From the NCBI GenBank assembly GCA_009840005.1, contig VXOR01000073.1, positions 84,427-148,426 of the forward strand: a stretch of 64,000 bases of DNA, read 5' to 3'. Every line of letters begins with the position of its first letter. Within the stretch, counting starts at the first letter, position 1. The position numbers and the translations under genes were made by a program. Positions 30,955 to 48,475 of the stretch are shown here, piece by piece. Source of the DNA: Gemmatimonadota bacterium (GTDB lineage: Bacteria; Latescibacterota; UBA2968; UBA8231). Below the pieces are notes generated by a model, which was given only the letters and a program-made list of their open reading frames with translations, was not told the origin of the DNA and searched no databases.

Positions 30955-32208
30955 TCAGCCGAACAAGCTTGGCTGTTCCCCTGCTTTCGGAACCAGCTTG
31001 CTTTCTCCGTTGACCTCCAGCATGACCAATTGCGGAATTGCGGCTTTTGCGGTCTCGAAAAACGCAGGGTCGCTTTCAATACCAATACTCTCGTAACCCA
31101 CTGCACACGCGGCAGCGATGGTCGAACCCCCTCCCATGAAGGGATCGAGCACTACTCCCTCACCCAACGGCAGAGCTGCGCGCACGATTTGGCGCATAAA
31201 GCTCTGCGGCTTAAGGGAGGGATGCGGCGCAATGTCGCGTTCCGCTGGCCGAGTGGGCGCACTGCGAATGACGTCGCCGAAAGGACGCTCGGCATTGATC
31301 CGTCTCAGTCCGCCCGTCTTCCACACGCGCAGGTTGTCCTGTACACGCCCCTCGCACGGCTTGCGAAATAGGCCCCAAGGCTCCCAACCGGAGCGAGGCA
31401 TAACGGTGACGTCCGCAAATTCGTCGTGTGCATTTTTAGGACGATCGCCGCCCCGCAGTGTCTGTACTAGGCGGATGATCTCACCGCGTTTCTCAAAGCC
31501 GCTTTCGACGAGGGCGGCATAGACCAAGTGCGACAACAGGGGGTTGGCGGCAATGAAAACGTGCCCTCCAGGCACAAGCACTCGCAATGCCCGCTCGCCC
31601 CATTGTCCAAAGAATGCGGCAAGCTGCTGCTTGTCGCCGTTACTGAGGACGGTAAAGCGAGGTAAGGGCTGGCGGACGCAGCCGTCTAAAGCTGGGGGGA
31701 TGCGCCAGACGCCACCCCGTCCGCGCCGGAGTTTGTCCTTTTCCTGAGTGGTGTACTCTTTCAGGCCGTAGGGCGGGTCGGTGACGATGGCGTGGACGCT
31801 ATTGGGGGGGCGGTGCTCCATCCATGAAAAACAATCTTCTTGAATGAGTTGATATGAAGCTTCGCCGGTCTGGTAGAGCGCTTGGGACTCGGCGACAGTA
31901 GGAGGTGCATCTTGCGGATGGTCGGTACGCCCAAAGGTGCCGCGCAGGATCGCCGACACTTCGGCAGGATGCTGCGATAGAATTTCTCGAAGATCGGAGG
32001 GCAGGTAATCGGCCAAGATGAGGAGCGGATCAGGATCGGTCTCACAGATTTGGGCTAGACGTCGGACTGTCGCTTCGGCGGGTCGGGCCTTGCCACTTTC
32101 GAGGCGGGAGATGTACCCTTTCGAGACCCCAAGGCGGTTCGCCACATCGGCTTGGGTCAATCCGCTTTCGAGGCGAGTTTGCCGCAGGTGATCCCCAAAC
32201 TGGACCAT
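30955..32208 (-). CDS. HTH-fused DNA methyltransferase (type II R-M)
   Basis: The 417-residue protein begins with an XRE-type helix-turn-helix domain (about 1-60: RLESGLTQADVANRLGVSKG, YISRLESGKARP). A beta-class amino-methyltransferase follows. Its motif IV, TDPPYG, near residue 142 precedes the AdoMet motif DPFMGGGST near 354; the DPPY form suggests N6-adenine or N4-cytosine methylation. Fusion of a controller-like HTH to the methylase suggests that it represses its own cassette. ATG at 32208 has GGAGGAG 9 bases upstream; longer starts (32226, 32280) lack a site. It is convergent with the nuclease half of the neighbouring chimera, which is its likely partner. Confidence 0.85.
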   Translation of the reverse strand: MVQFGDHLRQTRLESGLTQADVANRLGVSKGYISRLESGKARPAEATVRRLAQICETDPDPLLILADYLPSDLREILSQHPAEVSAILRGTFGRTDHPQDAPPTVAESQALYQTGEASYQLIQEDCFSWMEHRPPNSVHAIVTDPPYGLKEYTTQEKDKLRRGRGGVWRIPPALDGCVRQPLPRFTVLSNGDKQQLAAFFGQWGERALRVLVPGGHVFIAANPLLSHLVYAALVESGFEKRGEIIRLVQTLRGGDRPKNAHDEFADVTVMPRSGWEPWGLFRKPCEGRVQDNLRVWKTGGLRRINAERPFGDVIRSAPTRPAERDIAPHPSLKPQSFMRQIVRAALPLGEGVVLDPFMGGGSTIAAACAVGYESIGIESDPAFFETAKAAIPQLVMLEVNGESKLVPKAGEQPSLFG

Positions 32209-32290
32209 GCAGACGTTCTCCTCCATGAGGGTGGATGATCTTCGCGTAATATAGTTCGGTTTACTTGTTTGGTCAACCATGTTCGTATCG

Positions 32291-33304
<1,014 letters not shown>

Positions 33305-33308
33305 CGGG

Positions 33309-34316
33309 CTAATCCCCTCCTTCTTCGGTGTGGATGAAACAACGGGCGCGGTGATGTGGCCCTACTTCTGCGGACGCGGGCATTTGCTGTTCGCAAATGG
33401 GGCCGACCTTTTGCGTGCAGCGGGTGTGGAAGGGGCACCCCTCGGGCAGGGCGTACGCGCTGGGGACGCTGCCCTCAATCGGCTCGATGTGTCGGCGTTT
33501 GCCCGTCAGGCTGGGGATGGATTGCAATAGGGCCGCGGTATAGGGATGTGCCGGGCTGTCGAAAATTGCGGCTACTGGCCCCTCTTCGACGATCCGCCCC
33601 ATGTACATCACATAGACGTATTCGACTGTGTGAGCGATCACGCCTAGATCGTGAGTAATCAGCATCAGCGCTAGTCCCAACTCGCGCTGGAGTCGCTGGA
33701 TTAGCTTGAGCACCCGCGCTTGGACGGTCACGTCGAGTGCCGTGGTTGGCTCGTCGGCGATTAAGAGCCGCGGATTGCTCGCCAGTGCCATGGCAATCAT
33801 CGCCCGCTGGCGCATGCCGCCCGAAAGCTGGAAGGGGTAGTCGTCGGCGCGGTCCTGTGGATCGGGGATGCCGACTAAGTGCAATAGTTCGACGACTCGC
33901 TGCCGCGTTGCTTCTGAGGACAGCGAGTCGTGGAGCTGGATCATCTCGGCGATTTGGTTGCCAATGGTGTGCACCGGCGAGAACGCGGTCATTGGCTCTT
34001 GGAAGATCATGGAGATGTCGCCGCCTCTGATCTGGTGCATCTCGTCGCTGTGCGCGTCGAGCGCGGCGAGGTCGATTTCTCGCTCGTCCAGCTTGCGGCG
34101 GTAGCGGATGTGGCCGCTGGTTATCTCGGCTGCTGGCGGCAAAATCTGTAGCAGGGCGTTGGAGGTCATGGTCTTGCCGCAACCGCTTTCGCCGACGATG
34201 CCCACAGCTTGGCCGGTGTTGATGCGGAAGCTGACGCCGTTGAGCGGCCGCACCACGCCCTCGTCGCGAGTGATGCGCACGCTCAGGTCGTGGACGTCGA
34301 GTAGGGGAGCGGTCAT
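33309..34316 (-). CDS. oppD: oligopeptide ABC transporter ATPase, OppD type
   Basis: The 335-residue protein has Walker [13 protein letters not shown] near residue 40, [15 protein letters not shown], the signature [15 protein letters not shown], Walker [13 protein letters not shown], and the H-loop [11 protein letters not shown]. The C-terminus ([18 protein letters not shown]) is the Cys-containing OppD tail. It partners with OppF. Only 6 bases separate its ATG from the stop of the DUF2283 gene upstream, and there is no clear ribosome site, so its expression now depends on the inserted island or on coupling. In intact operons this position is directly behind oppC. Confidence 0.94.
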
Positions 34317-34322
34317 AGGTAG

Positions 34323-34523
34323 CTAAGCGGTCTCGAATTCCAAGGCAGAGAGATTCAGATTGGACGAGCGTTTCGACAGATAGAGCATTTCCACGCCCAC
34401 TACTTCGTTTGATTCGTTGTAATCGAGTACCACTCCCGGCGAGACCTCTGCGGACTCGACGATGGTAGAATCATCGAGGCGCAGGTAGAGCGCATCGGCT
34501 TCTTTATCGACATGTAGTTTCAT
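34323..34523 (-). CDS. DUF2283 protein, probable antitoxin
   Basis: The 66-residue protein matches the DUF2283 pattern: KEADALYLRLDD near the N-terminus, then SAEVSPGVVLDYNESNEVVGVEML, then a short Leu-rich tail. These small proteins are commonly found immediately behind DUF4258 genes and are thought to be antitoxins. Its ATG overlaps the stop of the DUF4258 gene (ATGA), showing coupled translation. oppD follows after 6 bases. Confidence 0.8.
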   Translation of the reverse strand: MKLHVDKEADALYLRLDDSTIVESAEVSPGVVLDYNESNEVVGVEMLYLSKRSSNLNLSALEFETA

Positions 34524-34795
34524 AATTTTCCTTTCATGTTTCGGTCAAAAAATACGCTCACCACCCGCCAAGGTGCAACGCGGGTGTTGACAGCGACGCG
34601 CAGTATTCGATTGTCCCGCTCTGGGATAGAACGGAAAAAACGCTCTACCTCGGGGTCGTTTGGGTCGGGCATGCGCAATGCTGGTTCGGCTACTGCTAGT
34701 TTGACCCACTCTATGGGGATCATTCGTTCGGCCATCGCATGAACCGCGTGCTTGGTACATTCCAGTTTTCCCGATTCGGATGGCATGTTACTCAC
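34520..34795 (-). CDS. DUF4258 protein, probable toxin
   Basis: The 91-residue protein has the DUF4258 pattern: CTKHAVHAMAERMIPIEWVKLAVAEP with the conserved His-Ala-x-x-x-M-x-x-R region, then RVAVNTRVAPWRVVSVFFDR at the C-terminus. The family resembles RelE-like RNases and pairs with DUF2283. Starts at GTG 34795 or ATG 34786 are both possible; the first overlaps the end of the SLOG gene by 8 bases. Toxin activity is inferred from the gene pair and not from visible catalytic residues. Confidence 0.75.
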   Translation of the reverse strand: MSNMPSESGKLECTKHAVHAMAERMIPIEWVKLAVAEPALRMPDPNDPEVERFFRSIPERDNRILRVAVNTRVAPWRVVSVFFDRNMKGKL

Positions 34796-35459
34796 TTATA
34801 TCCATAACCAGAGACGCAAAATTTTCGGCATGGATCGGCACAACGCCAAGCTCCACCAGATGCGCGTTGTCTGGCGAGTCTATGGCAAACACCGGCTTTC
34901 CAGCGGCGAGTGCGTCCTTGCACAGTGCCTCAGTTTTGCCGCCTTTTTCGGCGTGGGCGACGAGGATGTGGTCGGCGAACGCGGCGATATAGGCATTGCG
35001 CTGAGCAGCGATTGCTGCGGTGGGGCGACGAATGCGGTCGGCAAAAAAGGACAGAATCATCAAGCGCCCTTCGGCTAACGGCTCCTGCCAGTTTTTGGGA
35101 ATCCGCATTAGGCCAAGCCCTCGCGCAGGACAGACCACGACGGACGCCGAGCCGCGCAACAGCAAGTCCAAGCACTCCTTCTCCATGGGCGACTGAAAAC
35201 CGCCGATAATCGCGGCATCAGTTTCGCGCAGCATCCGCGCAAGATCGTAGGTTTTGAGGATTACGTCGCCTGGACAGCGCACAGAACAGAAGAAGCCAAT
35301 CCGGGTGCTGTCAAGTATGCCGGGGTTGCCCTTCAATGTGAACGTAGGCGCACTCCCAGCGTCAGCACAACGCCGCAACGCTACCGGGGTATCCGGTGCT
35401 CCCGATTCATAGTGTCTAGTCTTCAATTGCTGCTGAAGCACCTTGTTCGGCGAACACAT
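34788..35459 (-). CDS. SLOG/DprA-like nucleotide-binding protein
   Basis: The 223-residue protein resembles the Rossmann/SLOG core of DprA but lacks its other domains. It has GFFCSVRCPGDVILKTYDLARML near residue 55, AIIGGFQSPMEKECLDLLLRG near 85, VVVCPARGLG, ILSFFADRIRRPTAAIAAQRNAYIAAFADHILVAHAEKGGKTEALCKDAL, and AGKPVFAID. SLOG proteins bind nucleotides or nucleotide signals and often sit in defence or conflict loci. The role here is unknown. It is 4 bases after the PIN gene, in line with the methylase, so it is probably part of one transcript. It is distinct from the true dprA at 4365-5447. Confidence 0.65.
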   Translation of the reverse strand: MCSPNKVLQQQLKTRHYESGAPDTPVALRRCADAGSAPTFTLKGNPGILDSTRIGFFCSVRCPGDVILKTYDLARMLRETDAAIIGGFQSPMEKECLDLLLRGSASVVVCPARGLGLMRIPKNWQEPLAEGRLMILSFFADRIRRPTAAIAAQRNAYIAAFADHILVAHAEKGGKTEALCKDALAAGKPVFAIDSPDNAHLVELGVVPIHAENFASLVMDISE

Positions 35460-35463
35460 ATCT

Positions 35464-35877
35464 TCAAGCCTGCAACCAATTTTCTACATGGAGCTCGGAA
35501 ATTCTTTGAAAATGCTTCTCATTATTGGTGACGATCCCAAGTTTGTTCACTATTGCTGTGGCCGCGATCAAAATGTCTGCATCGCCAATCAATTCCCCTC
35601 GTTTTCGCAGGTCTGCGTATATTTCAGCGGCTTTTGAGATTATCTCTTCGCTCAGGGAGAGGATGGTATTCTGCGAACAGAAGTTCTCAAAGACTGCTAG
35701 CTGTTTAGTCGCTCCCTTTGCTTTTAGGCCGCGCAGAATCTCATACTGTGTGATGATGGAAAAGTGGAATCTGTGGTGCTCTTTGAGATAGGCTTGAGCC
35801 TTGGAGGTGACTGTGGGATCTTGTCGCATAACTGCGGTTAGAATATCCGTGTCCAACATCGCGCTTCGTAAGGCCAT
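35464..35877 (-). CDS. PIN-domain RNase, VapC-like
   Basis: The 137-residue PIN domain shows the acidic residues of the active site: MLDTDIL near residue 8, a Glu in QYEILRG near 45, and GDADILIAATA (two Asp) near 97, plus a C-terminal TNNEKHF. PIN proteins cut RNA, most often tRNA. The usual small antitoxin gene upstream is missing; instead its ATG overlaps the stop of the 1156-residue methylase (TAATG at 35875-35879). Either the antitoxin has been lost or this PIN protein belongs to the methylase system. Confidence 0.8.
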   Translation of the reverse strand: MALRSAMLDTDILTAVMRQDPTVTSKAQAYLKEHHRFHFSIITQYEILRGLKAKGATKQLAVFENFCSQNTILSLSEEIISKAAEIYADLRKRGELIGDADILIAATAIVNKLGIVTNNEKHFQRISELHVENWLQA

Positions 35878-38800
35878 TATGGAGTTCTATCTCCGAAAAA
35901 ATTGCGACGATCATGAATAATTTCTTCCATGTCATCCAAGTCATCATCGGAGAGTCCTTCATAAACCTTGGCCGCTAGCTTGAGGAGATCACTGCTATTT
36001 TCTTCAAAGGAGGTTTTTAGTCCCATGCGATACTTGATGTCGTAGTTGATGATGAAATCTAATTCCTCGTCGGTGAAGCCATAGTGTTCGGCGAGTACGC
36101 GGTCAATTTCGTCGATAATGGGTTTAGATTTGGACGCATAATACTCGTAATACGAGATTGAATCTCCGCTCTGAGTACTAATCTTTTTCTTTTTCGCGTT
36201 TGCTTGCAAGTCTTTCATCAACCTCGCACTTAGTTCTACTAAAATCCTATCCTCGACAATGCTTTGTTTTATGGGAAGACTCCGTATTACTGTATCGCTC
36301 AAATGAAAACAATCACTATAAGAAATAAAATACATATAGAACAAAGAACTATTCAAAATAGCACAAACAGCATGTGCTATATCCGAATCAAAAAAATATA
36401 AATATCGACCGTGAGGAGGAGATCCTACGATCCCATTCTTTGAATAATAAGGAAATCCATACTTAACCTTTGTCCAATACTGGGTTGCTTCTTGATAAAA
36501 TATAAAATTGCTAGTCTTTTTACTCGAGACAAATAAAGATATTGGACAGGACGAGGATATTTTTAGTTTTCGGAAAATATCACTTTCAACACTGTCCGAG
36601 CATTTGGGAAAAACTCCGTCAATTATAGGAGTATATGAATACGATGTATATCTAATTTTATTGAAGAGATGATGTCGAGCCTCTCCATACCATCTTTGGT
36701 AGCAAGCTGCTAGCAGACTACTACTAGGATCCTCTCGTTTTCGTCGTGAAAGAAAAACTACGCTTCTGCAATGTTGTAAGCCAGAAAAGAGCTTTCCAGG
36801 TCGATCATCAAATGGAATAACGTACAACTGATTAGTTTTTTCTTTCAAAAGTTTCCGCAACAAAGCCATACGCGAAGAGCTCATCATTGGGAGCTGAACG
36901 ATAAAGCTAAATTGTCCACCTGAACATACAAGATTGATGGCTCTTTCTGTACATAGATTGTGGAGATTGCCGCATTTTTCTGTTTCATAGCCTCTGATGA
37001 CGTACGATTTTTTTATAGTCGAATATTCCTTCCACGGCGGATTCCCAATAATCACGTCAAACCCACCGCCGTCCATAATCCCATAAAACTCGACAAACCA
37101 GTGAAATGGCTGGTGGCTGTCCCGCCATTTCCGGTACGCTCGTTCATCTCCGGTCTTGACGCCGTAATCACCCGCCAAATAGTGATCCAATTCGTCTCGC
37201 AGGTTGTCGAGCCATTTTCGCAATTTCGTCTTGGCGTTGGTGAATTCAACCGCATCCATCTCGCGCTCAGTCTGCATCTCTCGAAACTGACGAAAGGCCC
37301 GGTCGGCAATTTCGGCGTCCTCTTCAATGCGTTTCAGCTTGGCCTTATCTTCCGGATAGAGCATTCTTTGCTGGCCATCCGAGGTGGCGACGAATGCATC
37401 CTGTATTTCCTTGAGCGTCGTGAATCCGACAAGTGTATTCCCAGCGCGGACATTGAAATCAACGTCGGGCAGCGGCTCGATCTGCTCGTAACTCTCCAAC
37501 TGAGCGACCAGCTTTAGGAAGAGCCGTAGCTTGCAGATTTCCACAGCCTCTTCCATGATGTCCACGCCATAGAGGTTATCGACGATAATGGACTTGAGAA
37601 TGAAGTACCGCTCGCTGGCGTGGCTGGCAACCTGTTCCAGCACCTTGCGGAAATCACTTAGTTTCTCTGGACGATGCTTGCGTTTCGAGCGTTCCAGATC
37701 GTCGAGGAATCCCTGCATGGTTTCTAAGCAGGCAGTGTATATCGGCTCCAAGATGTTGAGCGCGGCAAACAAAAAGGCACCGGAACCGCAGGTGGGATCA
37801 AGGATGGAGACCTGAGTAATCGCCTTCCAAAAGGCGCGAATGAGTTCAGGCCCCTCGCTTCCCGCGATCACGTCTTGGGCGAATTTCTCGATGTCCAGAT
37901 TGTACGTGATGAGATCATTGACCGACGTGACCTCGCCGGCAGTGAGCTTAGCGCGGACTTCTTCATAGTGCTGACGGCGGGCTACGTGCTCGCGCCAAGT
38001 TTCAGTGGGAAGAGCATAGTCGGGCGGGGCCGCCTTGTTCCAATCTCCGCGCTTGGACACGTCTTGCAGGCCAACAGCTATCTCAGGCGGTAACTCGCGC
38101 TTTTTCGCAAGAGCTTCCCCTTTATGGATGTCGTAGGTAATGCCGTGGCGAACTGCCTCGTAAAAATACCGGTCTGGGTCGTCCGCTAATAGCTGCCACA
38201 CCCCGCCGCCGGGCTTGAAGGCGATGGAGCACTCCTTCTTCGCCCGATCAAACAGGAAGGGAATGATGGTGTTGCGGCTGATGTAGCCGGTGATGTCCTC
38301 CTTAGTATAGTAGGCCCCCATCTGCTTCTGATTGATGTACTTCTCGAAGATGTAGCCGAGGACATCGGGATTGATCTCGTTGTCATTGCGAAGCGGCCGA
38401 TCGTCGAGATGCCACTGGTAAGCGTCGAAGAAATCGAATATCTGCTGAAATGCCTCATCCGGGATGTGGATGTCTTCGTTGTCGCGTTCTAGGTCGTGGA
38501 CTTCAAAGAGGCCGCCGTTAAGATAGGGAATCTCGCCCAGCAGTTCGGCCAACTCGGGTGTGCGGTCGGCCTCTGGCTGCCCCAGTCCCTCGTGAAACAG
38601 CCGCAGAAGAAACAGTCGGTAGAACGTCTGAAAGCGATCCTCCCCGTACGCTGTCTGCATACGTTGCAGGCGGTTTTGCAGATAATCTGTATCGCCGTCT
38701 AGGAAGCCGCGCTTCTGAATGAAGTAAATGAACATCATCCGGTTTAGCATCAGCGAAGCGTACCATTCGCGGTCGGCTACGTTCTCGATTCCTTCGATGA

Positions 38801-39347
38801 AGCTGAGGAAGGCGAGGTGTTCTTTCTTGAAGCGGTCGTAGAACCTCTTTGTGACCTTCTCGACATCAAAGGCCGCGCGCACCCGCCCCGATACATCGAC
38901 GATGGTCAGGTCGTCTTCTTCGTCCAGCGTGAAGACGATTTGCTCCAATTTCTGGATCAGTGCTTCTCCCGTCTTACCCCTTTCGTAGATATGCGAGCGA
39001 GAGCGGTCGGGCTGGCCGGGTTCGCGCTTCACCCATTGCCAATGGTGCGTGCTCCTGTCGGATAAGGCGTACACGATGATGTGTTCGCGGACCTTCTTGG
39101 CGACGGTTCTTTCGATCTTCTGGCGAGTGGGATGGTCGGGGAAAGCGGCGTCCGCGTCGGCCACGTACTGATAGGCCACCAATCCGCGCTTGTGGGCGAC
39201 GGCTTGGAGAGCGTAGGTCACGTCGGCGACCGGGATTTCTAGGCCCTCGCCGCCACGGTCCCAGCCCAGTTCCTCAATGAACAAGGATCGGAGGTCGAAT
39301 CGCTCCAGCGATGCTCTGATTTTAGGGCGGTCGAGGTGTGTCGGCAT
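35877..39347 (-). CDS. large Eco57I-type adenine methyltransferase (type IIG/ISP-like)
   Basis: The 1156-residue protein has an N-terminal alpha/beta region (1-130) of the kind found ahead of such methylases, possibly a nuclease. A helical region follows (VTKRFYDRFKKEHLAFLSFIEGI...NRMMFIYFIQKRGFL). The N6-adenine methylase core has DPTCGSGAFLFAAL near 517 and NPPWKEY near 766. Residues about 770-1060 are the presumed target-recognition domain, encoded by strikingly AT-rich DNA (36180-37030). The protein probably modifies, and perhaps cuts, DNA together with the PLD-SNF2 helicase gene. It is divergent from the AbiEi-like gene (125-base spacer) and overlaps the PIN gene downstream. Confidence 0.85.
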   Translation of the reverse strand: MPTHLDRPKIRASLERFDLRSLFIEELGWDRGGEGLEIPVADVTYALQAVAHKRGLVAYQYVADADAAFPDHPTRQKIERTVAKKVREHIIVYALSDRSTHHWQWVKREPGQPDRSRSHIYERGKTGEALIQKLEQIVFTLDEEDDLTIVDVSGRVRAAFDVEKVTKRFYDRFKKEHLAFLSFIEGIENVADREWYASLMLNRMMFIYFIQKRGFLDGDTDYLQNRLQRMQTAYGEDRFQTFYRLFLLRLFHEGLGQPEADRTPELAELLGEIPYLNGGLFEVHDLERDNEDIHIPDEAFQQIFDFFDAYQWHLDDRPLRNDNEINPDVLGYIFEKYINQKQMGAYYTKEDITGYISRNTIIPFLFDRAKKECSIAFKPGGGVWQLLADDPDRYFYEAVRHGITYDIHKGEALAKKRELPPEIAVGLQDVSKRGDWNKAAPPDYALPTETWREHVARRQHYEEVRAKLTAGEVTSVNDLITYNLDIEKFAQDVIAGSEGPELIRAFWKAITQVSILDPTCGSGAFLFAALNILEPIYTACLETMQGFLDDLERSKRKHRPEKLSDFRKVLEQVASHASERYFILKSIIVDNLYGVDIMEEAVEICKLRLFLKLVAQLESYEQIEPLPDVDFNVRAGNTLVGFTTLKEIQDAFVATSDGQQRMLYPEDKAKLKRIEEDAEIADRAFRQFREMQTEREMDAVEFTNAKTKLRKWLDNLRDELDHYLAGDYGVKTGDERAYRKWRDSHQPFHWFVEFYGIMDGGGFDVIIGNPPWKEYSTIKKSYVIRGYETEKCGNLHNLCTERAINLVCSGGQFSFIVQLPMMSSSRMALLRKLLKEKTNQLYVIPFDDRPGKLFSGLQHCRSVVFLSRRKREDPSSSLLAACYQRWYGEARHHLFNKIRYTSYSYTPIIDGVFPKCSDSVESDIFRKLKISSSCPISLFVSSKKTSNFIFYQEATQYWTKVKYGFPYYSKNGIVGSPPHGRYLYFFDSDIAHAVCAILNSSLFYMYFISYSDCFHLSDTVIRSLPIKQSIVEDRILVELSARLMKDLQANAKKKKISTQSGDSISYYEYYASKSKPIIDEIDRVLAEHYGFTDEELDFIINYDIKYRMGLKTSFEENSSDLLKLAAKVYEGLSDDDLDDMEEIIHDRRNFFGDRTP

Positions 39348-39472
39348 TGGGAATGTCCTCGATTAGATCTTCGTTTTTAGCACCTTAAAATTTAGTTCAC
39401 TGTGCCTATATTATCCAACTATACCAACATAAGTATATTATATTTGACAAAATTCTCTAAAAATGTGAATTT
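39348..39472. promoter_or_regulatory. divergent AT-rich control region of the methylase and AbiEi-like genes
   Basis: The 125-base spacer is far richer in A+T than its surroundings. It contains a near-direct repeat tatCCAAC / tataCCAAC (about 39412-39429), a short inverted pair ATAC...GTAT (39421-39436), TATATTA elements and a TTGACA at 39444. The paired CCAAC boxes are a candidate operator for the AbiEi-like protein, whose family autoregulates. Exact promoter boxes cannot be fixed by eye. Confidence 0.4.
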
Positions 39473-40294
39473 ATGAATATGGAATATACTTATTCTTCCG
39501 AAGATGTGCTGCCAATCGGTCGGCGGAGGCTCGCAGCCGTAATACGGGCTGCCAACGATGTTATCCAAATTGCCGATGTCGCGGCGGCACTTGCCATCGG
39601 CAGGCTTGAAGCCTCCAAGCTCTTGTCCCGATGGGCAGGCCAAGGCTGGTTGCGGCGCGTTGGTCGAGGGGCCTATATCCCCGTGCCTATGGATTCGCTC
39701 GACAGCCAACATGTGCTCGAAGACCCTTGGGTACTTGTTCCCGCCCTTTTCACCCCGGCCTATATCGGAGGTTGGACGGCCGCTGAGCACTGGGACCTTA
39801 CTGAGCAGTTGTTCCGCGACATCGTCATAATGACGACGCAGACGGTGCGCGAAAAGCATCAGGTCCGCCACGGAGCGCACTTTATGTTGTACCACGTCCA
39901 AGAGCGCAAAGTCTTCGGTACGAGGCCCGTTTGGCGAGGCCGTTCCAGAGTACTGCTCTCGGATGTTCACCGGACCGTGATCGACATGCTGGACAATCCC
40001 GCCCTCGGAGGAGGGATTCAACACGTGTCCGACTGCCTCAATGCCTACCTGAAACGCCCTGATCGCAGCGATGATACGCTCACTGCCTACGCTGAGAGAC
40101 TTGGCAATGGAGCAGTATTCAAGCGCCTTGGCTTTCTGGTCGACCAACATTCCGATACTTCCCATATCACCGATGTTTGCCGGGCGCATCTGACAGCAGG
40201 CAACGCTAAGCTCGATACCACCCTCAGATGCCCCCGTCTGATTTCCAAATGGCACCTCTGGGTCCCGTCAACTTGGGCGGGAAAATCGAATTAG
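39473..40294 (+). CDS. AbiEi-like antitoxin/transcription regulator, no AbiEii partner
   Basis: The 273-residue protein has an N-terminal winged-helix domain (about 15-70: IQIADVAAALAIGRLEASKLLSRWAGQGWLRRVGRGAYIPVP) and a C-terminal AbiEi domain (LVPALFTPAYIGGWTAAEHWDLTEQLFRDIVIMTTQ..., LSDVHRTVIDMLDNP...). In type IV toxin-antitoxin systems the AbiEi antitoxin is followed by the AbiEii nucleotidyltransferase. Here the next gene converges from the other strand after 18 bases and no such enzyme exists. It probably regulates the divergent methylase operon. Start ATG 39473 or 39479. Confidence 0.8.
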   Translation: MNMEYTYSSEDVLPIGRRRLAAVIRAANDVIQIADVAAALAIGRLEASKLLSRWAGQGWLRRVGRGAYIPVPMDSLDSQHVLEDPWVLVPALFTPAYIGGWTAAEHWDLTEQLFRDIVIMTTQTVREKHQVRHGAHFMLYHVQERKVFGTRPVWRGRSRVLLSDVHRTVIDMLDNPALGGGIQHVSDCLNAYLKRPDRSDDTLTAYAERLGNGAVFKRLGFLVDQHSDTSHITDVCRAHLTAGNAKLDTTLRCPRLISKWHLWVPSTWAGKSN

Positions 40295-40312
40295 CACTAT
40301 CCTGACGAGATT

Positions 40313-43300
40313 TCAGTTCCCAGTCCGTCCAATTAGGCCCAGCGAGCAGACAATACTCGGTTCTTGGCGTTCATCTTCTTCATGGACGATGCAGAGCCGA
40401 TCCTCATCCCTGAGCGTGATGACCAACTCGGCAAGTGCCTCATCAGAAACCCCGCTACGCAACTGCCGGTTTAGCGTATCCAGCGCAGCTTGACGCAAGG
40501 GATAGCGATAGATGTCGTCAATTGCCCGACGTAGAGGCTCCGTATCGAACAGTGTACCTTCGACCTGTTCGGCATGGCTCTTGAGCCGATCGTAGGTGCG
40601 AAATCGAGCTCCAGACGGTCGCCCAAGCTGGCCTCCTACCTGTTTTTCCTGACGGGAAATGTACTCTACAGCCTTACTTACTAGATCGTGATGGGTGTCG
40701 TGACGCGGTAAGGCCGGCGTGTCGGGCGAGCATTCGGCAGTCCGCAAAATCTCGAATTGACTCTCGGTAATGCTCCTACCATCGCGGTTAATCCAAGCCA
40801 ATGCATCGTTTCCTTGCTCGGTACGCATATAAACGAGAGCTCCTTCCGGTCGCTCCGGTCGTTCATGGTAGGCTTTCGAGGAATACACCACCGAGGGTAA
40901 GCCCTCAATCTTCTTTTTGAGCGGCGGGTCGGCCTCCGTTGCGTTTTTCCAGATTTGATAGGCGTAGGATGAGAGATCAACTTCTGTATCATCGTCACCA
41001 TCGAGAATTCCAGCCTTCTCATTATAGAGGTCGAATATGGCCCGTTGGTCCTCATCCTCGAAGAATGCCTCATCCGTCCCTACGACCTCGGCGTTTTCTT
41101 GGAGGCGCTCCCGTACACGCTCCCGCAGCCGGATCAGACGTTCGACCCCTTCGGCGGGAAGAAAGGAGTAGCACAGGATGTTGTCCGCCTTTTGACCAAT
41201 ACGGTCAACGCGGCCAGCACGTTGAATCAGGCGGATGATGGCCCACGGCAGGTCGTAGTTCACCACGATGGCGCAATCTTGCAGGTTCTGCCCTTCGCTG
41301 AGCACATCAGTCGCAATCAGTATGCGTAGTTCCTCATTGCCGAGATCGTCTTTCTCGTTGCTCCTCGGGCTAAAGCGCCAAGCGAGTTTTGTCACGTCTG
41401 GCGAGTCCCCTGTTGCGGCGGCCATGTCTAGCACTCCGCGTGTCTTCAACTCGCTTTCTAGGTAGTGCACTGTGTCGGCGAATTGGGTAAAGACTAGAAC
41501 TTTTCGGTTCGCATGTTCGTCCCTCAGCAATTCTTCCAGTGCACCTAGCTTGGCATCCTTGGCCGCGTGCCACTCGCCGAATTCGGCTAGGAGGTCGAGA
41601 AGTGTCTTGGCGTCGGCCTTTAGGGCACTACCGAGGTTTGTGACGAAGTGGTGTGGCGGCAGCCAGCGGAATCGCCTCTTGTAGCGATCAGCATAGAGCG
41701 CATAGACCTCGGCAGCTCGCTGGCGGAAATCGGCCTCAGTTCGCAGTGGGGTTGCTCCGTTGGACTCTTCACTCTCGTCTTCATCTCCCGTATCGAAAAA
41801 GTCCCCGACTCCCTCATCAGCATCTCTATCGAAGGATTGCGTATCCAAGAGTCCGGCATCGATCGTTCCGATGGGGAGCGGCAAGTCATTCTCAATGGCG
41901 TGAAGAAAGATGAAGTTCCTGAGAACGTGCCGTTCGACCGACAGCAGAAAGGCATGGCCGCTGCTCTCCAGACGTTTAAACAGGTTGGTTCGGCAAAAGC
42001 CCATGAGGCGCTTCCCAGCGCGCGATAAGTCGTCTATGACCTTTGTCTCAGTCTCGGTGGGTGGCGTGGGCGGCGATGGCTCGACGTAATTGCCCAGACC
42101 ATAGCGCGGGAGTTCCAAACCGTTTATGGCCTCAACGACGTTGTCCGCGAACAGCCGGGCATATTGCTCATCTATATCAAACCGAAGCGTCTTTGGGACT
42201 CGTGCTGGGAAATAGGAGCGCGTGCCGTCTTCAAAGGTCAGATATTTTCGCCCACTGGTCTCGTCGGTGGCAGCATAGTTGTCTTGGATGAAGCTGCGAG
42301 TCCGACGCACAAGGTACAGGCGCATTAGCTCCCGCCAGTCGTCGGTATGCTCAGATTTTTCAAATGCCGCTAGGGATCGAATGGGGGCTTGATGCTGGCG
42401 CACGAACTCGGTTTCACCCATCTGCTGAAGCAAGCGTTCTGGGCGAATGCCGAGATCTGTATCCTCAGCTACAAATAAGCGAAGCTGGCTAGATAAATCT
42501 AGGTAAGTCTTGTTGTACGGGGTCGCCGACAACAGGATGCACTTACTGTCGTTTTCCGTGATGTATTCTTGGATAGCGCGGTATCTCTTGCCTTCGCGGT
42601 TTCTCAGATTGTGGCTCTCATCGATGAGTACCAGCCGGTAACGGCGCATATTGGGCAATTCGTTAATCACGCGGCTGATCGACAGTACGCGAGCCCGCAT
42701 ACGGTACTGCCCGCGATAATCCTCCCACATTGGAACGAGATTCTTCGGACAAATGATTAAGGTCTCAAGGCCGTGATCGTCTTCAAATACTCGGGCTAGA
42801 GCGGTTGCCATGAGCGTCTTGCCCAGCCCGACGACATCGCCGATAATGACACCGCCGCGTTTGTTCAGGAGATGGGCCGCGATTTTTACCGCAGCCGTCT
42901 GGAAGTCGAGCAGTTTGTTGCCGAAGTCTGTGGGGATACGAAACTCGTTCAGGCCGGCCCGTGCTTCCTGTGATAGGTGATAGGCTATCTTAACGTAGAT
43001 ATGGTACGGCGGAATTGGTTCCTCTCTCGCCCAACTCTCATTAATAATTTCGATAAGCTCTTCCGAGATATCGATGCACCAACGGTCATCCCAGCGTTCC
43101 TCAAACCATTGAGCGAGCTTCTGACAGGCGTCGTGCTCCAGCACATCGACGTTGAGTTCACCCTGACCAGACAGCCCCGCTTGGGTGAGATTGCTGCTGC
43201 CTAAGTATCCGACGGTCGGATTGATCGGATCGGGGCGGAACAACAGGTAGAGCTTGGCGTGAAGCGGATGCTTGAGAAACAGCTTGACCACGACCTTCTT

Positions 43301-43669
43301 TGCTTCGAGCTGTCGCGCTAGTCTGCGCAGGCCCGCCTCGTCCGCGTTGCTAGGAACGCCGATCGTCAATTGCTCTCGAAACTCTTCTGCTAGCTTGCGT
43401 TTCAATCGCAACGCCGTCTGGTTGTCTAGCTGCTCTTCACTGAGATTTCTCGCAATGCGAAGCTCTTCATGGGGCAACCGCTGCATGCCGACTAGCAGAC
43501 GGCAGCAATGACCGTCTCCACCATCCCATTTCTCGACGTATTCGTCGATGGCGCGCCAGCCGCGCAGGTTGAAGTAGCCCACGCAGAAGTCCGCCCGGTC
43601 GGAAACTTCTATAGTTTCTGCTAGAGCTGGAAGAAGAGGTTGTTCAATATTGTCGAAAATTCGCGGCAC
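40313..43669 (-). CDS. PLD-fused SNF2-family helicase
   Basis: The 1118-residue protein begins with a phospholipase-D-like domain ([11 protein letters not shown] near 28, HAKLYLLF at about 136, [10 protein letters not shown]), with one clear HxK motif. The SNF2 ATPase follows: Walker [10 protein letters not shown] near 277, DESH near 349, [11 protein letters not shown] near 381, and in the second lobe [26 protein letters not shown] and [11 protein letters not shown] near 816. The C-terminal 250 residues are helical and unassigned. Such enzymes translocate on duplex DNA, and the PLD part may cut DNA. With the Eco57I-type methylase this is a probable anti-phage system related to, but smaller than, DISARM. 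Confidence 0.88.
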
Positions 43670-43740
43670 TGTACTCGTTTACAGCGTTCGGTTTTGGTCG
43701 GCTATCAAGGCGGGGAGCGTCGGGCACTCCACAACCCGCA

Positions 43741-44127
43741 TCACACATCAATCTGCAACTCTGTATGGCGCGAGATCGCGTTGAAGTCGGAGTCATTGTG
43801 AAGGATGGGAACGCCGGCGCGTATAGCTATGGATGAGATGAGACAGTCTATCAGTTTGCGAACGGTCTCCCCTTCCCGCCGACAACGGCGGTAGAGGGCC
43901 GCGGCATCATCGTAGTCCGTTGGCAGCGTCGGAATGATGGCTGCCCGTGCGAGCAGTCGGCGCAGACTTTGCAAATGAGATTCGTCCCGCGCACCGGCGC
44001 AGACCTCCATCCGCACGGCATCACAAATGGCAATCTCTTGTGCCAATAGGACGTCGACGCGGATGCAGACTGCGGAGCCGGTGCCGCGCAGAAATTCGAC
44101 CCAAGCTGAAGTGTCGATCAGAATCAT
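43741..44127 (-). CDS. vapC: VapC toxin, PIN-domain RNase
   Basis: The 128-residue PIN protein shows the expected acidic residues: [13 protein letters not shown] near residue 4, a Glu in VRMEVCAG near 42, and [13 protein letters not shown] near 94 with HNDSDF near 110. It is coupled to the VapB gene upstream (GTGA-type overlap at 44124-44127), so this is a complete VapBC module. VapC cuts tRNA or rRNA when VapB is degraded. It sits at the oppC-side edge of the inserted cassette. Confidence 0.9.
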
Positions 44128-44327
44128 GTGGTGCGACTAGAACGCAACGCGTCGAGGTCGCCCTCCCAACCCGACCCGCGAAGCTGACGAGCCTCGTCAA
44201 TGGACAGGGGCTCGGCCGCGAGTGAGCGTAGCGCGAAGTTGATCGCCTCCCTCTTGGTCGTCAGCCGATAGCGGCGCATCACCTCTGCACACGCCTGATC
44301 GTCGATATTTACGTTGGTGCGGGACAT
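44124..44327 (-). CDS. vapB: VapB-type antitoxin (DUF2191-like)
   Basis: The 67-residue protein has a ribbon-helix-helix start ([20 protein letters not shown], then [15 protein letters not shown]) and an acidic Trp-containing tail ([12 protein letters not shown]) that would bind the toxin. ATG at 44327 is chosen because the family motif begins there and a promoter lies just upstream; a longer frame to 44507 would run into oppC. It is coupled to vapC. Confidence 0.88.
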
Positions 44328-44333
44328 ACACCT

Positions 44334-44362
44334 AATATACACCAAAAGGAAAATGGCTACAA
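44334..44362 (-). promoter_or_regulatory. promoter of vapBC
   Basis: On the minus strand TTGTAG (44362-44357) and TATATT (44339-44334) are 17 bases apart, and the vapB ATG follows closely. GGTGTAT occurs twice around the -10 box (GGTGTATATTAGGTGTATG), a candidate VapBC operator overlapping the promoter. Confidence 0.55.
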
Positions 44363-44404
44363 AGATTCGCTGGGCCGAAGTTTTCTCGCCTCGCCAAAAG
44401 GCAA

Positions 44405-45511
44405 TTAATGGCTCGCATACGGATCGGCTGCGTCGCGCATCCCATCGCCGACCAAGTTGAAGGCCAAGACCGCGATGACCACGAAAAGCCCGGGCAGCAA
44501 CAGCCACGGTGCCATGGCCACGGCCTGAAAGTTCTGCGCCTTTTGCAGCAGCACCCCCCAGCTAACCACGGGTGCCCGCAGCCCAATCCCCAAAAAGCTC
44601 AGCGCGGTCTCGCCGAGAATCATCCCCGGCACCGCTAGGGTGGCCGAGGTGATCACATGGCTGAGGAACGACGGCAGCAGGTGTTTGAAAATGATCTTCA
44701 ACTCGTGGGTGCCCGACAGGCGGGCGGCAACCACGAAATCCTCGTCGCGCAGCGACAGAAAGCGGCCGCGCACCACCCGCGCCAACCCAGTCCAGCCCAT
44801 CAACGAGAGAATGATGGTGACGCCAAAGTAAATATGCAGCGGCGGCCAGTGCGCTGGCAGCGCCGCGCTCAGAGCCATCCACAGCGGTAGCTGCGGCACG
44901 GCCATCAGGACCTCAATGATCCGCTGCACCACCACATCGACCCAGCCGCTGTAATAACCCGCCAATCCCCCGAGCAAGATGCCGATGAGGAAGGTCAGGG
45001 CCACGCCGATTAGCCCAATGGTGAGCGAAATGCGCGCCCCATGTATGATTCGGCTGAACAGGTCGCGGCCCAAGTCGTCGGTGCCAAAGAGGAACAATGG
45101 CCCGCTGTCCGCGCTGAACAGGTGCCAGTCCGCGTTGAAAAGCCCCCAAAACTCGTAGGCCGGGCCGCGCGCAAAAAAGCGGATCGGATACACGGCCTCG
45201 GTATCGACGAGATATTCACGCTGCCACGGACCGGCGGCTGTGTCTTGCCGCACACCGTGGACAAAGGGCCGCCAATGAAAGCGCCCCTCGCCGTCGAAGA
45301 AGCGAATCGACTGCGGCGGACAGAGGACGTATTGCGCGTGGCGCTGGTCGGGCTGGTAAGGCGAGACAAATTCGCACAAGGCCGCGAGGCCGTAGAGCGC
45401 AATCAACACCGCACTGCCGGCCAGCGCCAGCCGATGGCGGCGGAAGCGCATCCACATCAGACGCCATTGCGAGGCGTCGGCTAGTTGAGTTGTGGGGCGG
45501 TCTTCACTCAT
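44405..45511 (-). CDS. oppC: oligopeptide ABC transporter permease, OppC type
   Basis: The 368-residue protein has an N-terminal helix ([22 protein letters not shown]), an unusually long periplasmic loop of about 120 residues, then [26 protein letters not shown] and four further helices. The EAA-type loop [22 protein letters not shown] contacts the ATPase, and ALSFLGIGL follows. It forms the inner-membrane channel with OppB. ATG at 45511 overlaps the oppB stop by 8 bases. oppD should come next but the defence cassette intervenes. Confidence 0.93.
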
Positions 45512-46487
45512 AGCGGATGCGCGGGTCGGCAATGGCCAAGAGAATGTCCGACAGCAGGGTACCGATCACCGTCAGGACGCTGAGCATGAGCAGGAAACTG
45601 CCAGCCAAATACATGTCTTGGTTGCGGAGGGATTCGAGCAGCAAGGGGCCGGTTGTCGGCAGGCTCAACACCACGCTGGTGATGGCCGAGCCGGAGATCA
45701 GGTGCGGCAGCATCCAGCCGACCGTGCTGATAAAGGGATTGATCGCAATGCGCAATGGGTACTTAATCACCAAGCGGACCGGACCAAGGCCCTTGGCCAG
45801 CGCCGTTGTTACGTAGGGTTTGCCTAGCTCGTCGAGTAGATTGGCGCGCATGATCCGCATCAGCCCGGCCATGCCGGCCGTGCCGACGACCACGGCCGGG
45901 ATCCACAGATGCCCGAGCAAATCGCCGAACTTGGCCAAGCTCCACGGCGCACTCGCGTACTCGGGGGAAAACAACCCGCCCACGGCGATCCCAAACCACT
46001 CGTAGCCCAGGTACATCAAAACCAGCGCCAGCAGGAAGTTGGGCGTCGCCAAGCCGACGAAGGCCGCGAGGGTTGCCGTGTAGTCGAGCGCCGAGTACTG
46101 GCGCAGGGCCGAATAGATGCCTACCGGGAAGGCCACCAGCCAAGTCAACAAGGTCGCGGTCGAGGTAATCAGCAAGGTGTAGCCAAGCCGCTCCCAAATC
46201 AGGTTGTTGACCGACTGGCCGTACATCACCGAATAGCCCATATCGCCTTGGAGGAAGCCACCCATCCACTTGAAGTATTGGATAACCATCGGGTCGTCGA
46301 GGTGGTAGCGGGCGCGCAGGGCGGCGATCTGTTCCTCGGATATGTCTTGGCCCTCGGCCTGTAGCTCTTGCAGGCGCGACGTGATGATGTCCCCGGGCGG
46401 CAACTGGATGACGACAAATACCAGCACCGAAACGGCCAGCAGGGTGGGGATCATAATTAGGACGCGGCGGATGATGTAGTTGATCAT
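45504..46487 (-). CDS. oppB: oligopeptide ABC transporter permease, OppB type
   Basis: The 327-residue protein begins with the family start MINYIIRRVLIMIPTLLAVSV and has five further helices. The EAA loop LLDELGKPYVTTALAKGLG..RLVIKYPLR and the C-terminal IADPRIRYE are typical of OppB/DppB. It pairs with OppC. The spacer to the upstream binding-protein gene is a short tandem-repeat array that overlaps that gene's stop. Confidence 0.93.
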   Translation of the reverse strand: MINYIIRRVLIMIPTLLAVSVLVFVVIQLPPGDIITSRLQELQAEGQDISEEQIAALRARYHLDDPMVIQYFKWMGGFLQGDMGYSVMYGQSVNNLIWERLGYTLLITSTATLLTWLVAFPVGIYSALRQYSALDYTATLAAFVGLATPNFLLALVLMYLGYEWFGIAVGGLFSPEYASAPWSLAKFGDLLGHLWIPAVVVGTAGMAGLMRIMRANLLDELGKPYVTTALAKGLGPVRLVIKYPLRIAINPFISTVGWMLPHLISGSAITSVVLSLPTTGPLLLESLRNQDMYLAGSFLLMLSVLTVIGTLLSDILLAIADPRIRYE

Positions 46488-46489
46488 GG

Positions 46490-46524
46490 GTTAGTGGTTA
46501 GTGGTTAGTGGTCACTGTCCACTG
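46490..46524. repeat. GTTAGTG tandem heptamer array
   Basis: Three perfect copies of GTTAGTG at 46490-46496, 46497-46503 and 46504-46510 are followed by the related GTCACTG and TCCACTG, so the array is also partly palindromic. It supplies the stop codon and last residues (DSDH) of the peptide-binding protein. It is related to the repeat at 4270-4364. Confidence 0.8.
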
Positions 46525-48475
46525 CTAGATACCAAGTCTCTGGATAGTAGGGCCAAGACCAGCGCGAATCCCACCCCCAATAGCCTTGGCGCGGGACATT
46601 GCGCAGCCGGTTGCTAACAATGACGGGATGTGGCCCTAGGCCGATGACGCCGAGCGCCCACAGGTTGTCGGCTTGGCTCTGGAGAATTTTCTTGCCCATG
46701 GCGATGCGCTCTTGGAGGTCGGATGTGCGGCGGAGCACCTCCCACCAAGCGATTAGGTCCCGGACCTTGCCGGGCGGCATCCAGCCGCGCACTCCGTCCG
46801 ACCGGTACCACCGCGACCACTCCGGCCACTGGGTCACCTCCTGCCCCACGTGCATGGGCACGTACCAAAAAGGCTCGATGGGAAAGAGGATGTCGGCATT
46901 GCGGTCAGCGTGCCAGATGCTCATGTCCATAACCCCGCCTCGAGTGCGGATGCCTTGTAGCGCGCCGCTTATTTGCTTGCGGTTGATGTGCAGCCCCACT
47001 TCGCGCCAATGGGCGGTCACCAAATCCACCGTAACTTGCTTTGGCGTCTCCCCGATTGTGTACTCCAGCGTGATTTCGAGGGGGCGGCCATCGGGATGCT
47101 CGCGCCGGCCATCGCCGTTGCGGTCAATCAGCCCCATCTCGTCGAGCAGGGCGCGGGCGCGTTGCGGATCGTACTCGGCCCAAGCTGCGGCAAAGGAAGG
47201 CTCAAAGTAGCGGCTCGAAGATACGACCGTCAACTGGCGTGGAACCCCTTGCCCGTAATAGGCGATGTCGTTGATCTCGGCGCGGTTGATGGCCAGCGAG
47301 AGGGCGCGGCGAAAGCGCACGTCCTGAAAAATCTGCCGGAGCCGCTCGTCGGGGTGGGTCATGTTGGGCATGAAGGTCACGTCCGAGCCGTAGGGACGAG
47401 GCCAGAGGTAGGTCTCGTAGTCGTTGTCCTGCTCGAAGCGCTTAAACAGCGGGATGTCGGCGGTCTTAAACTGCCGCCCGGCAAAATCGACCTGCCCGGT
47501 GGCGGCCTTGGCCGCCATGATCTCGGGGCTGTCAACCCGCTGGACTTCGAGGTAATCGATATAGGGCAGTTGGTTGCCGGCCGGATCTACTTTGGGGTAG
47601 TAGGGGTTGCGGCGGTAGCGGACGCGCGTCGAAGTCTTGCTAACCACCACGTAAGCGGTCTGCACCGGCTTGTAAAAGACCATTAGGTCTCGAGTGTTGA
47701 TAACGGCTTGGAAGTAAGTTCGCCAGTCTTGCACGCCGAGTTCTTCTGCTTCGTGCGCTAGCTGATCTGCGTCGGTAAAGTCGGGGTGATAGCGGCGCAT
47801 AAAGTGTGCTGGTGCCGACAGGTGCGAGCTGTTGTGGGCGAGGTGCTTGACAAAGAGCGGCATCGGCTGGGGAAAGTGATAGCTAAAGACGTGGGGACTG
47901 TGTTTTTCGATGCGGGCTCCCTTAAAGCGGGGCGACACCACGGGCGTGAGGCTTTTGTTCTGATGGACGCGATCGAACCAAAAGACAAAGTCGTCGGCCG
48001 TCACTGGGTGGCCGTCAGACCACTTGTGACCGGGCCGGAGGAAGACCATCAGGGTCTGCGCGTCGTTGTGGTACTCGACCCGTGCGGCAAAGTTGGGTAG
48101 GGTTAGCTGGAGCTGCGGCCCCGGGCGCAGGGTTCCTTCGGGCACGTTGAGGAGTTGTTCGCCGGCGAGAAACAGCCGCGCGGTGCCCCCGTAGGTCCCA
48201 ATTCCATTAATCGGCTCGACGACAATCGGGTCGTCGGGGAGCCGCTCCGCCACCGGCGGCAACTCGCCGCTGGCCACCAGCTCGTCGAGCATGGGCGACT
48301 GGCGAAAGGTAGTTAAGCCGACTTCCGAGGCCGTGCGCGGCGGATGGAACCAGCTTTCGGGCCACGCAGTGCGCGGGATATCGCCCTCGGCCGCAGGGGG
48401 TGCCGCTTGACTTTCTCGGCCGCATCCTACTAGGACCACGAGCATTAGTAGGAACCCAGCCTGCACTCCATTCAT
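46505..48475 (-). CDS. oppA: peptide-binding lipoprotein of the ABC transporter (OppA-like)
   Basis: The protein of about 656 residues has a lipoprotein signal (MNGVQAGFLLMLVVLVGC) and the SBP_bac_5 fold. Typical segments are LRPGHKWSDGHPVTADDFVFWFDRV, IDYLEVQRVDSPEIMAAKAATGQVDFAG, DVRFRRALSLAINRAEIND and ARALLDEMGLIDRNGDGRREHPDG. It captures peptides or related solutes in the periplasm for OppBCDF. At about 650 residues it is longer than E. coli OppA, like those of many FCB and Thermus-type bacteria. ATG 48475 fits the signal peptide best; GTG 48490 is possible. The C-terminal DSDH comes from a repeat. Confidence 0.9.
   Translation of the reverse strand: MNGVQAGFLLMLVVLVGCGRESQAAPPAAEGDIPRTAWPESWFHPPRTASEVGLTTFRQSPMLDELVASGELPPVAERLPDDPIVVEPINGIGTYGGTARLFLAGEQLLNVPEGTLRPGPQLQLTLPNFAARVEYHNDAQTLMVFLRPGHKWSDGHPVTADDFVFWFDRVHQNKSLTPVVSPRFKGARIEKHSPHVFSYHFPQPMPLFVKHLAHNSSHLSAPAHFMRRYHPDFTDADQLAHEAEELGVQDWRTYFQAVINTRDLMVFYKPVQTAYVVVSKTSTRVRYRRNPYYPKVDPAGNQLPYIDYLEVQRVDSPEIMAAKAATGQVDFAGRQFKTADIPLFKRFEQDNDYETYLWPRPYGSDVTFMPNMTHPDERLRQIFQDVRFRRALSLAINRAEINDIAYYGQGVPRQLTVVSSSRYFEPSFAAAWAEYDPQRARALLDEMGLIDRNGDGRREHPDGRPLEITLEYTIGETPKQVTVDLVTAHWREVGLHINRKQISGALQGIRTRGGVMDMSIWHADRNADILFPIEPFWYVPMHVGQEVTQWPEWSRWYRSDGVRGWMPPGKVRDLIAWWEVLRRTSDLQERIAMGKKILQSQADNLWALGVIGLGPHPVIVSNRLRNVPRQGYWGWDSRWSWPYYPETWYLAVDSDH

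Follow-up and report, generated by a model that had tools for sequence, protein, structure and literature searches.

The stretch analysed here, referred to throughout as the window, comprises 64,000 nucleotides of contig VXOR01000073.1 (assembly GCA_009840005.1, positions 84,427 to 148,426) from a Gemmatimonadota bacterium placed by GTDB in the Latescibacterota. On its minus strand it carries a protein in which an HKD/PLD nuclease is fused to a RapA-like SNF2 helicase (HEL, 40313..43669, 1118 residues, GTG start), together with an N6-adenine-type DNA methyltransferase that has its own target-recognition region (MTase, 35877..39347, 1156 residues). Sequence comparison suggests that the two probably form an ATP-dependent restriction-modification system of two subunits, with a secondary arm encoded behind them. 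The conserved unit consists of HEL, the MTase, variable genes and a DprA-like protein, and it is a new and widespread arrangement of known parts, not a wholly new kind of system. A first-pass annotation of the same DNA had singled out these two large same-strand open reading frames (ORFs) as a candidate anti-phage pair, and both were confirmed. Its domain calls also held. The predicted N-terminal PLD nuclease-like domain of the helicase is matched by Pfam PLDc_2 at residues 109-193, followed by SNF2-rel_dom and Helicase_C, and the adenine methylase called as Eco57I-type matches Pfam Eco57I at residues 591-847.

We envisage that the MTase would read a short asymmetric site with its C-terminal region and methylate adenine there. 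At an unmethylated site it would recruit or activate HEL through an N-terminal domain, here called N1, whereupon the SNF2 motor may move along the DNA and the HKD nuclease may cut it. The DprA-like protein and the changeable gene preceding it, which encodes a PIN protein in the window and an HNH, OLD/Gabija-type, Schlafen or Mrr-like protein elsewhere, could provide a second layer, acting as a sensor or antitoxin with a back-up effector.

Conservation of the helicase-nuclease and methyltransferase pair

A scan of one genome per GTDB species returned 290 relatives of HEL, and the best 80 (63-91% identity, from many phyla) were kept. When the ORFs of these loci and of the window were clustered, HEL was present in all 81, the MTase in 74 and the DprA-like protein in 42; the next family reached 8, and no further large gene family recurred beside the pair in the 81 loci. 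Of the 68 loci that leave 1.5 kb or more of room, 66 have the MTase 3' of HEL in the same orientation, as judged from gene clusters, and in the remaining two (L032 and L039) it was seen by tblastn. The gap between the two genes has a median of 9 bp (73 gaps).

The pair also recurs in four whole-genome samples, for which the Fisher values treat related genomes as independent and some members (G004, G005 and G011) hold loci used in building the N1 profile. Among 64 Latescibacterota-like genomes a close HEL was found in 12 and the MTase in 10, and all ten MTase genes share a contig with HEL (Fisher 4e-10). The 198 Nitrospirota-like genomes contain 13 with a close HEL, 12 with the MTase (11 with HEL) and 13 with N1 (12 with HEL), giving a Fisher value of 3e-17 for HEL with N1. 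In 299 Pseudomonadota-like genomes HEL and N1 each occur in three, the same three and in adjoining genes (Fisher 2e-7; G004 was a seed). Of 84 Poribacteria-like genomes, 28 have a close HEL and 26 have N1; 25 have the two together, 23 of them on one contig (Fisher 5e-17). Where the MTase or N1 is found in these samples, HEL is nearly always present too, mostly as its immediate neighbour. Distant HEL matches (28-36% identity) were set aside. They comprise G017, G019 and a second match in G051 among the Latescibacterota-like genomes, G210 among the Nitrospirota-like ones, and four Poribacteria-like genomes that have distant matches only (G575, G586, G591 and G614). The first-pass annotation would have been refuted by a lack of conserved co-occurrence across genomes, and the pairing withstood this check.

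The catalytic motifs of both proteins are intact. Within the HKD active-site stretch of HEL (residues 137-160, 43190..43261, minus strand) the residues H137, K139 and G157-S-S-N160 are invariant in 40 of 40 aligned sequences. The same holds in the motor for G281/G283/K284/T285, D350/E351, A382-T-P384, D788, S791-E-G793, Q816-R817 and G819-R820, with variation at the helicase motif positions H353 (35/40), S381 (34/40) and G277 (39/40). All 44 aligned MTase sequences keep D-P and G-S-G-A-F (motif I) and N-P-P (motif IV) unchanged. Averaged over columns, identity reaches 68% in HEL, 49% in the MTase and 30% in the DprA-like protein, the conservation figures for HEL being biased upward because the loci were chosen as best matches to the query helicase and not at random. 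HEL is widespread, with at least 8000 relatives, and well conserved across phyla; in phage records no relative was matched at E 1e-20. Three distant HEL relatives (26-32% identity) were seen in loci L125, L124 and L121, and the first of these has an adjoining MTase. The N1 profile detects no N1 in the distant HEL-MTase pairs of L124 and L125, and these relatives form a sister family, which may be a separate system.

The pair is widespread and conserved across phyla, yet it has no name in the open-access literature searched. Database labels treat its halves as unrelated, one as a helicase-related protein or a member of the NgoFVII family, the other as type IIG.

The N1 domain and the exchange of target recognition

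The structure model of the MTase (pLDDT 81) aligns over residues ~161-1113 with BrxX, CamA, MmeI and the methylase part of type ISP enzymes, comparisons in which residues 1-163 barely take part. Variability peaks at residues 850-1100, and segment identities across loci were computed for 24 loci (276 pairs). One case is the comparison with L001, whose HEL is 91% identical to that of the window. Here the MTase is 79% identical over residues 1-160, 96% over 161-370, 83% over 371-800 and 80% over 1070-1109, with only 28% over residues 801-1069 (36141..36947, minus strand). In GC content that segment stands at 36.6% in the window and at 46.5% in L001, whereas residues 1-800 have 52-61% (53-60% in the window itself). 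Such low identity and unusual GC between conserved flanks is the signature of an exchanged target-recognition region. A larger exchange separates plasmids of Synechocystis PCC 6803 and 7338, which share 94% DNA identity over 4545 nt, from HEL across a VapBC-like pair and some 315 nt into the MTase, and beyond this only two short DNA matches; at the protein level the likeness extends over MTase residues 1-372 (59%). In L003 (13970-21574) a single HEL precedes two methylases that belong to one family; the gene separating them has a cluster mate in L002 with MTaX1 and HNH_2 domains.

The first 160 residues of the MTase (38868..39347, minus strand) constitute N1, the proposed coupling domain, which tracks with HEL. 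The N1 profile matches the head of both Eco57I-type and MmeI-type methylases behind HEL, and N1 heads three kinds of MTase body in all. Plasmid relatives of HEL were found in 24 records (27 with the Synechocystis protein as query), and the annotations around HEL were examined for 17. Rhodococcus, Pseudarthrobacter, Gordonia and Paenarthrobacter have MmeI_hel and MmeI_Mtase domains in the protein encoded behind HEL, and where it is uncut also MmeI_TRD. For the Rhodococcus protein of L130 the likeness to MmeI sets in only at MmeI residue 161, and its first 150 residues match the N1 profile (E=4e-27). N1 lies behind HEL, in a gene or in a gap, in 16 of the 16 plasmid records tested, the seventeenth (Leptolyngbya, with a shortened HEL) having been left out; this count includes Dolichospermum, where a 285-residue remnant is left, and Ornithinimicrobium, where N1 is a reading frame in the gap between HEL and the MmeI gene.

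A tree of 76 HEL sequences from 96 loci, made by a quick method with SH-aLRT support only, requires six changes for the type-B methylase body, at least four of them forced by well-supported branches, and places the MmeI-type partners in one clade. The loci dropped were nine with a cut MTase and eleven in which N1 had not been found; a six-frame search recovers N1 in three of the eleven (L030, L032 and L038) and none in L074, with seven not re-searched. The repeated changes of body on this tree, together with the presence of N1 on several bodies, indicate that one methylase body has been traded for another behind N1 and HEL. We infer from these patterns that N1 may bind HEL; alternatively, it could be an inactive nuclease or serve to bind DNA. 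A bolder proposal, which we think quite possible and stop short of calling probable, is that N1 serves as a portable licence domain, making any large methyltransferase (Eco57I-type A or B, or MmeI-type) the specificity subunit of a near-constant and widely transferred helicase-nuclease. The target site would be changed by swapping the body or recognition region behind N1 with HEL unchanged, and the DprA-like protein would guard an exchangeable second effector in the operon. If the coupling reading is true, it accounts for the way in which restriction specificity can change with the motor left untouched.

A laboratory strain offers a link to a characterised enzyme. Plasmid pSYSX of Synechocystis 6803 carries HEL (SGL_RS01585), a VapBC-like pair and an MTase (SGL_RS01600) 47% identical to that of the window. 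A table of PMC4963859 names the pair at the matching place as ssr6048/slr6049, so the next gene, the MTase, is presumably slr6050. According to the available text of two further papers, M.Ssp6803IV and M.Ssp6803V both lie on pSYSX (PMC6604393), the former methylating GA(m6A)GGC and the latter assigned to the type I genes slr6095-97 (PMC7296061). Two DNA methyltransferases, one linked to HEL and the other of type I, are listed in the possibly incomplete PLSDB gene table of pSYSX. Because M.Ssp6803V belongs to the type I genes, the HEL-linked enzyme is by elimination M.Ssp6803IV, which on this assignment is a member of the HEL-MTase system. Should the coupling reading be true, M.Ssp6803IV, which looks like a solitary methylase, would prove to be one half of a restriction system, and the question could be tested in a standard laboratory cyanobacterium. 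Adjoining the Synechocystis pair (L127, 17924-20545) is the multiubiquitin/E1/E2 cassette discussed in the available part of PMC4963859.

The DprA-like gene, the variable slot and the surrounding genes

The third conserved component is a DprA/Smf-like protein (34788..35459, minus strand), which matches Pfam at 26.3 bits (cut-off 29.6) and PADLOC PsyrA at 51.5 bits. The first-pass annotation had missed this gene and had suggested instead that a PIN ribonuclease (35464..35877, minus strand, VapC-like, Pfam PIN 52.6 bits) might be a third effector. The PIN gene does overlap the methylase stop as noted there, by one shared base (TAATG), and has no VapB partner alongside. As a general component it did not stand up: by gene clusters, the window and L001 are the only loci listed where it follows the methylase, and PIN domains occur in two of 71 other slot proteins among the families listed. 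Of the 35 loci that offer 6 kb or more of room, 26 have a DprA-like gene within 8 kb 3' of the MTase. Its association with HEL is looser than that of the MTase, HEL being present in 10 of the 12 Latescibacterota-like and 7 of the 13 Nitrospirota-like genomes that have a strong match. Matches above 150 bits occur without HEL in G036 and G044 of the former (of 12) and in G128, G155, G189, G215, G241 and G257 of the latter (of 13), near a contig edge in G044, G155, G189, G241 and G257; in G116 the match and HEL are on different contigs. DprA-like antitoxins are known, and among the matches of the protein the ShosA chain 9vzo reaches 20.7 bits, less than the 28 bits of the ordinary DprA 3uqz.

The slot between the MTase and the DprA-like gene is variable. 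The 71 proteins chosen from it, among the 25 most frequent of 74 families, include AAA_15 (8), HNH_2 (5), OLD-like TOPRIM (4), MTaX1 (4), Schlafen AlbA_2 (3), Mrr_N (2), PIN (2) and PLDc_2 (2), and Gabija- and AriA-type matches appear among the first 25 of 430 PADLOC families. This set omits the PIN proteins of the window and L001, minus-strand ORFs, ORFs under 100 residues, extra HEL or MTase copies and some others; where no DprA-like gene was present, the first two plus-strand ORFs after the MTase were taken. Eight loci have no ORF of at least 75 residues between the MTase and the DprA-like gene (one, L058, has a cut MTase), which argues that the DprA-like protein is not merely an antitoxin for the slot gene.

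A second such place lies between HEL and the MTase, where certain lineages have toxin-antitoxin genes: AbiE in L001, AbiEi in the window, a Zeta-toxin-like protein in L027, and, in Synechocystis and Picosynechococcus, a VapC accompanied by a small partner. The small same-strand regulator that had been placed here in the window was rejected as the antisense of AbiEi. The ORF in question (39419-40255, minus strand) has no family match, and the opposite strand encodes an AbiEi antitoxin/regulator (39473..40294, plus strand; PADLOC PDLC02271 AbiEi, E=9e-124) whose substitutions relative to L001 number 25, 13 and 51 at codon positions 1, 2 and 3 of the plus frame (271 codons); there is thus no supported shared-strand gene between HEL and the MTase. 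In L001 AbiEii (Pfam 111 bits) comes after the AbiEi gene. The window lacks AbiEii and has no room for one, HEL ending 18 bases past AbiEi, so the AbiE pair once lay between HEL and the MTase in this lineage and half has since gone from the window.

Upstream of HEL lie a VapC toxin (43741..44127, minus strand; NF047959 128.6 bits, cut-off 80) and a VapB antitoxin (44124..44507, minus strand; Pfam VapB_antitoxin 51.7 bits), the true start of which is probably the internal ATG of MSRTNV... VapBC was rejected as part of the conserved unit, VapC and the VapB core being matchless in L001; only the N-terminal extension of VapB, which overlaps the next gene, finds a match there. Across the loci compared PIN, AbiEi and VapBC were not seen as a recurring set, and on sequence comparison they are local passengers.

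The whole cluster seemingly sits inside one oligopeptide ABC transporter operon (32291-48490), with genes of 661, 327 and 375 residues at 44405-48490 and ATPases, identified by family matches, at 32291-34316. In G044 (L116, 3383-9467) relatives of all five transporter genes run uninterrupted with a DprA-like gene upstream, and the defence cluster has probably been inserted into the operon. Some 2.5 kb past the DprA-like gene, a 441-residue protein (30955-32280) combines an N-terminal helix-turn-helix with a DNA methyltransferase part (PADLOC MTase_II 382 bits) and is a possible second modification enzyme. Two overlapping genes of 298 and 623 residues (49567-52331), the first matching mad3 (71 bits) and weakly AriA, are possibly another small defence pair upstream. 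The only tRNA gene found in the window, tRNA-Asp, lies at 28324-28400.

Alternative explanations and related systems

Several observations weigh against coupling of HEL and the MTase as a restriction system. The structure model of HEL is poor (low confidence, pLDDT 69, its two best Foldseek matches being RapA), and both nuclease and motor activity are predicted for every HEL. N1 occurs without a close HEL in G138 (at a contig edge) and G629, and the DprA-like gene is missing from 9 of the 35 loci with room. HEL, in turn, stands without N1 or the MTase in G014 (contig edge), G034, G083 (truncated HEL), G605, G651 and G613 (partial HEL); in G034, locus L118, six frames contain neither N1 nor a methylase core. 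In Dolichospermum HEL is followed by the 285-residue remnant, which is N1 only, and in Paenarthrobacter and Microbacterium transposase genes lie inside or behind a shortened MTase with HEL kept. Such persistence of HEL fits a nuclease dependent on the MTase, and also plain decay. In 2018 Hagemann reportedly named slr6050 as the probable enzyme for M.Ssp6803IV and is said to have reported it essential, which fits a self-protecting methylase and is awkward beside the MTase losses elsewhere. The loci that retain HEL with an MTase missing, reduced to N1 or shortened beside transposase genes are L118, L136, L139 and L140.

One alternative is that the MTase is a type IIG enzyme that cuts alone, beside an unrelated helicase-nuclease, as its PADLOC label would have it (REase_MTase_IIG, 1145.8 bits). 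The N-terminal region of MmeI is a nuclease, and PD-(D/E)XK nucleases carry the catalytic pattern (D/E)xK. The family scans of the window MTase detect no nuclease family, the strand where (D/E)xK could be reads AxK (A51 in 42 and K53 in 43 of 44, a comparison that presumes this fold for N1), and in the Rhodococcus partner the match to MmeI begins only at MmeI residue 161. Together with the co-occurrence with HEL in all four genome samples, this makes an autonomous type IIG enzyme highly unlikely. A system like or related to BREX, in which the methylase marks self, HEL is a helicase of the BrxHII/HmaA type and replication of phage DNA is halted by the complex with no cleavage, draws on the match of the MTase model to BrxX over residues 161-1113. 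HEL also aligns to RapA, as the available text of PMC12839542 says of BrxHII, and the same source describes an HKD-Snf2 fusion in Type-2 BREX-related (BR) systems. We consider it unlikely, for no third large family recurs beside the pair, PglZ and BrxC are absent from the PADLOC lists of the window ORFs scanned, and the DUF499 ATPase does not adjoin the pair in 12 carrier genomes tested. Seven of these 12 have no DUF499 match and five have one away from HEL, 46 kb away in G001 and, in G007, as two borderline short matches in stretches that lack HEL. BREX membership was rejected on the first two of these grounds, and membership of BR/Hma Type-2 on the first and third, the HKD-Snf2 fusion itself being present.

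The first-pass annotation had likened the pair to DISARM. The parts are indeed alike (helicase and methylase) and DrmA and DrmB are missing, as it stated, but the closest relatives are ATP-dependent restriction-modification and BREX-related HKD-Snf2 systems. A degenerate DISARM, to which the weak and partial PADLOC matches of HEL to DrmD (104 bits) and of the MTase to DrmMI (84 bits) might point, is scarcely credible, as both proteins have better matches elsewhere ('HKD+Snf2' at 166 and REase_MTase_IIG at 1146 bits), and no further large recurrent family in the 81 loci could supply its defining genes. In the PADLOC lists for the window ORFs scanned nothing matches DrmA or DrmB except HEL's own helicase domain, and DISARM membership was rejected for want of these genes in the operon. 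PADLOC lists, the clustering of recurrent neighbours and the DUF499 search thus gave no named system of the same composition among DISARM, BREX and BR/Hma. The earlier statement that the set has no established name agrees with the open-access literature searched, where we found none for HEL, MTase and DprA-like protein together, though one may be published elsewhere. The available parts of PMC7641849, which describes a DUF499-linked cousin, and of PMC12715929 do not describe the set.

The nearest known systems each share some of these features. Type III enzymes resemble it in layout, with a methylase bearing its own recognition region and a separate predicted ATP-dependent helicase-nuclease; this is a likeness and not membership, because HEL matches ResIII only weakly (Pfam 29.4 bits). 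With type IIL MmeI and type IIG enzymes it shares the fold of the methyltransferase and recognition region, as well as the MmeI domains of the actinobacterial partners, and differs in carrying N1 in place of the N-terminal region, which in MmeI is the nuclease. HEL's domain combination is that of PADLOC C3a139 'HKD+Snf2' (166 bits) and NCBIfam NF042964, although the latter score (143 bits) is far under the cut-off of 1100 and a system definition was not seen with these families. A DprA-like protein after an effector gene recalls ShosTA and PsyrTA, whose toxin partners PsyrT and ShosT were not seen among the slot families listed (first 25 of 74 and of 430). The nuclease of CglI is of the PLD type and its methylase is a C5 enzyme; SauUSI has a PLD-type nuclease too, and differs from the present pair in recognising methylated DNA itself; it is not known to have a methylase partner. 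As far as the available text of the sources goes, CglI and NgoAVII (PMC5737866, PMC4267653) likewise have a nuclease and a helicase-like ATPase acting with a methylase gene, though as separate proteins where here they are one, and CglI has an asymmetric site and requires nucleotide hydrolysis (PMC5737866). The type IV enzyme SauUSI, in the available part of PMC7913695, joins a nuclease domain and a translocating helicase-like ATPase in one protein. The DUF499-centred BR/Hma Type-2 systems, as described in the accessible text of PMC12839542, pair an N6-methylase with an HKD nuclease fused N-terminally to a Swi2/Snf2 RapA-like helicase; here a DprA-like gene and a variable slot take the place of the adjoining DUF499, and the MTase bears N1. 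In parts and order the unit is closest to Type-2 BREX-related systems, and by analogy its logic would be closest to ATP-dependent restriction-modification with a separate methylase and helicase-nuclease.

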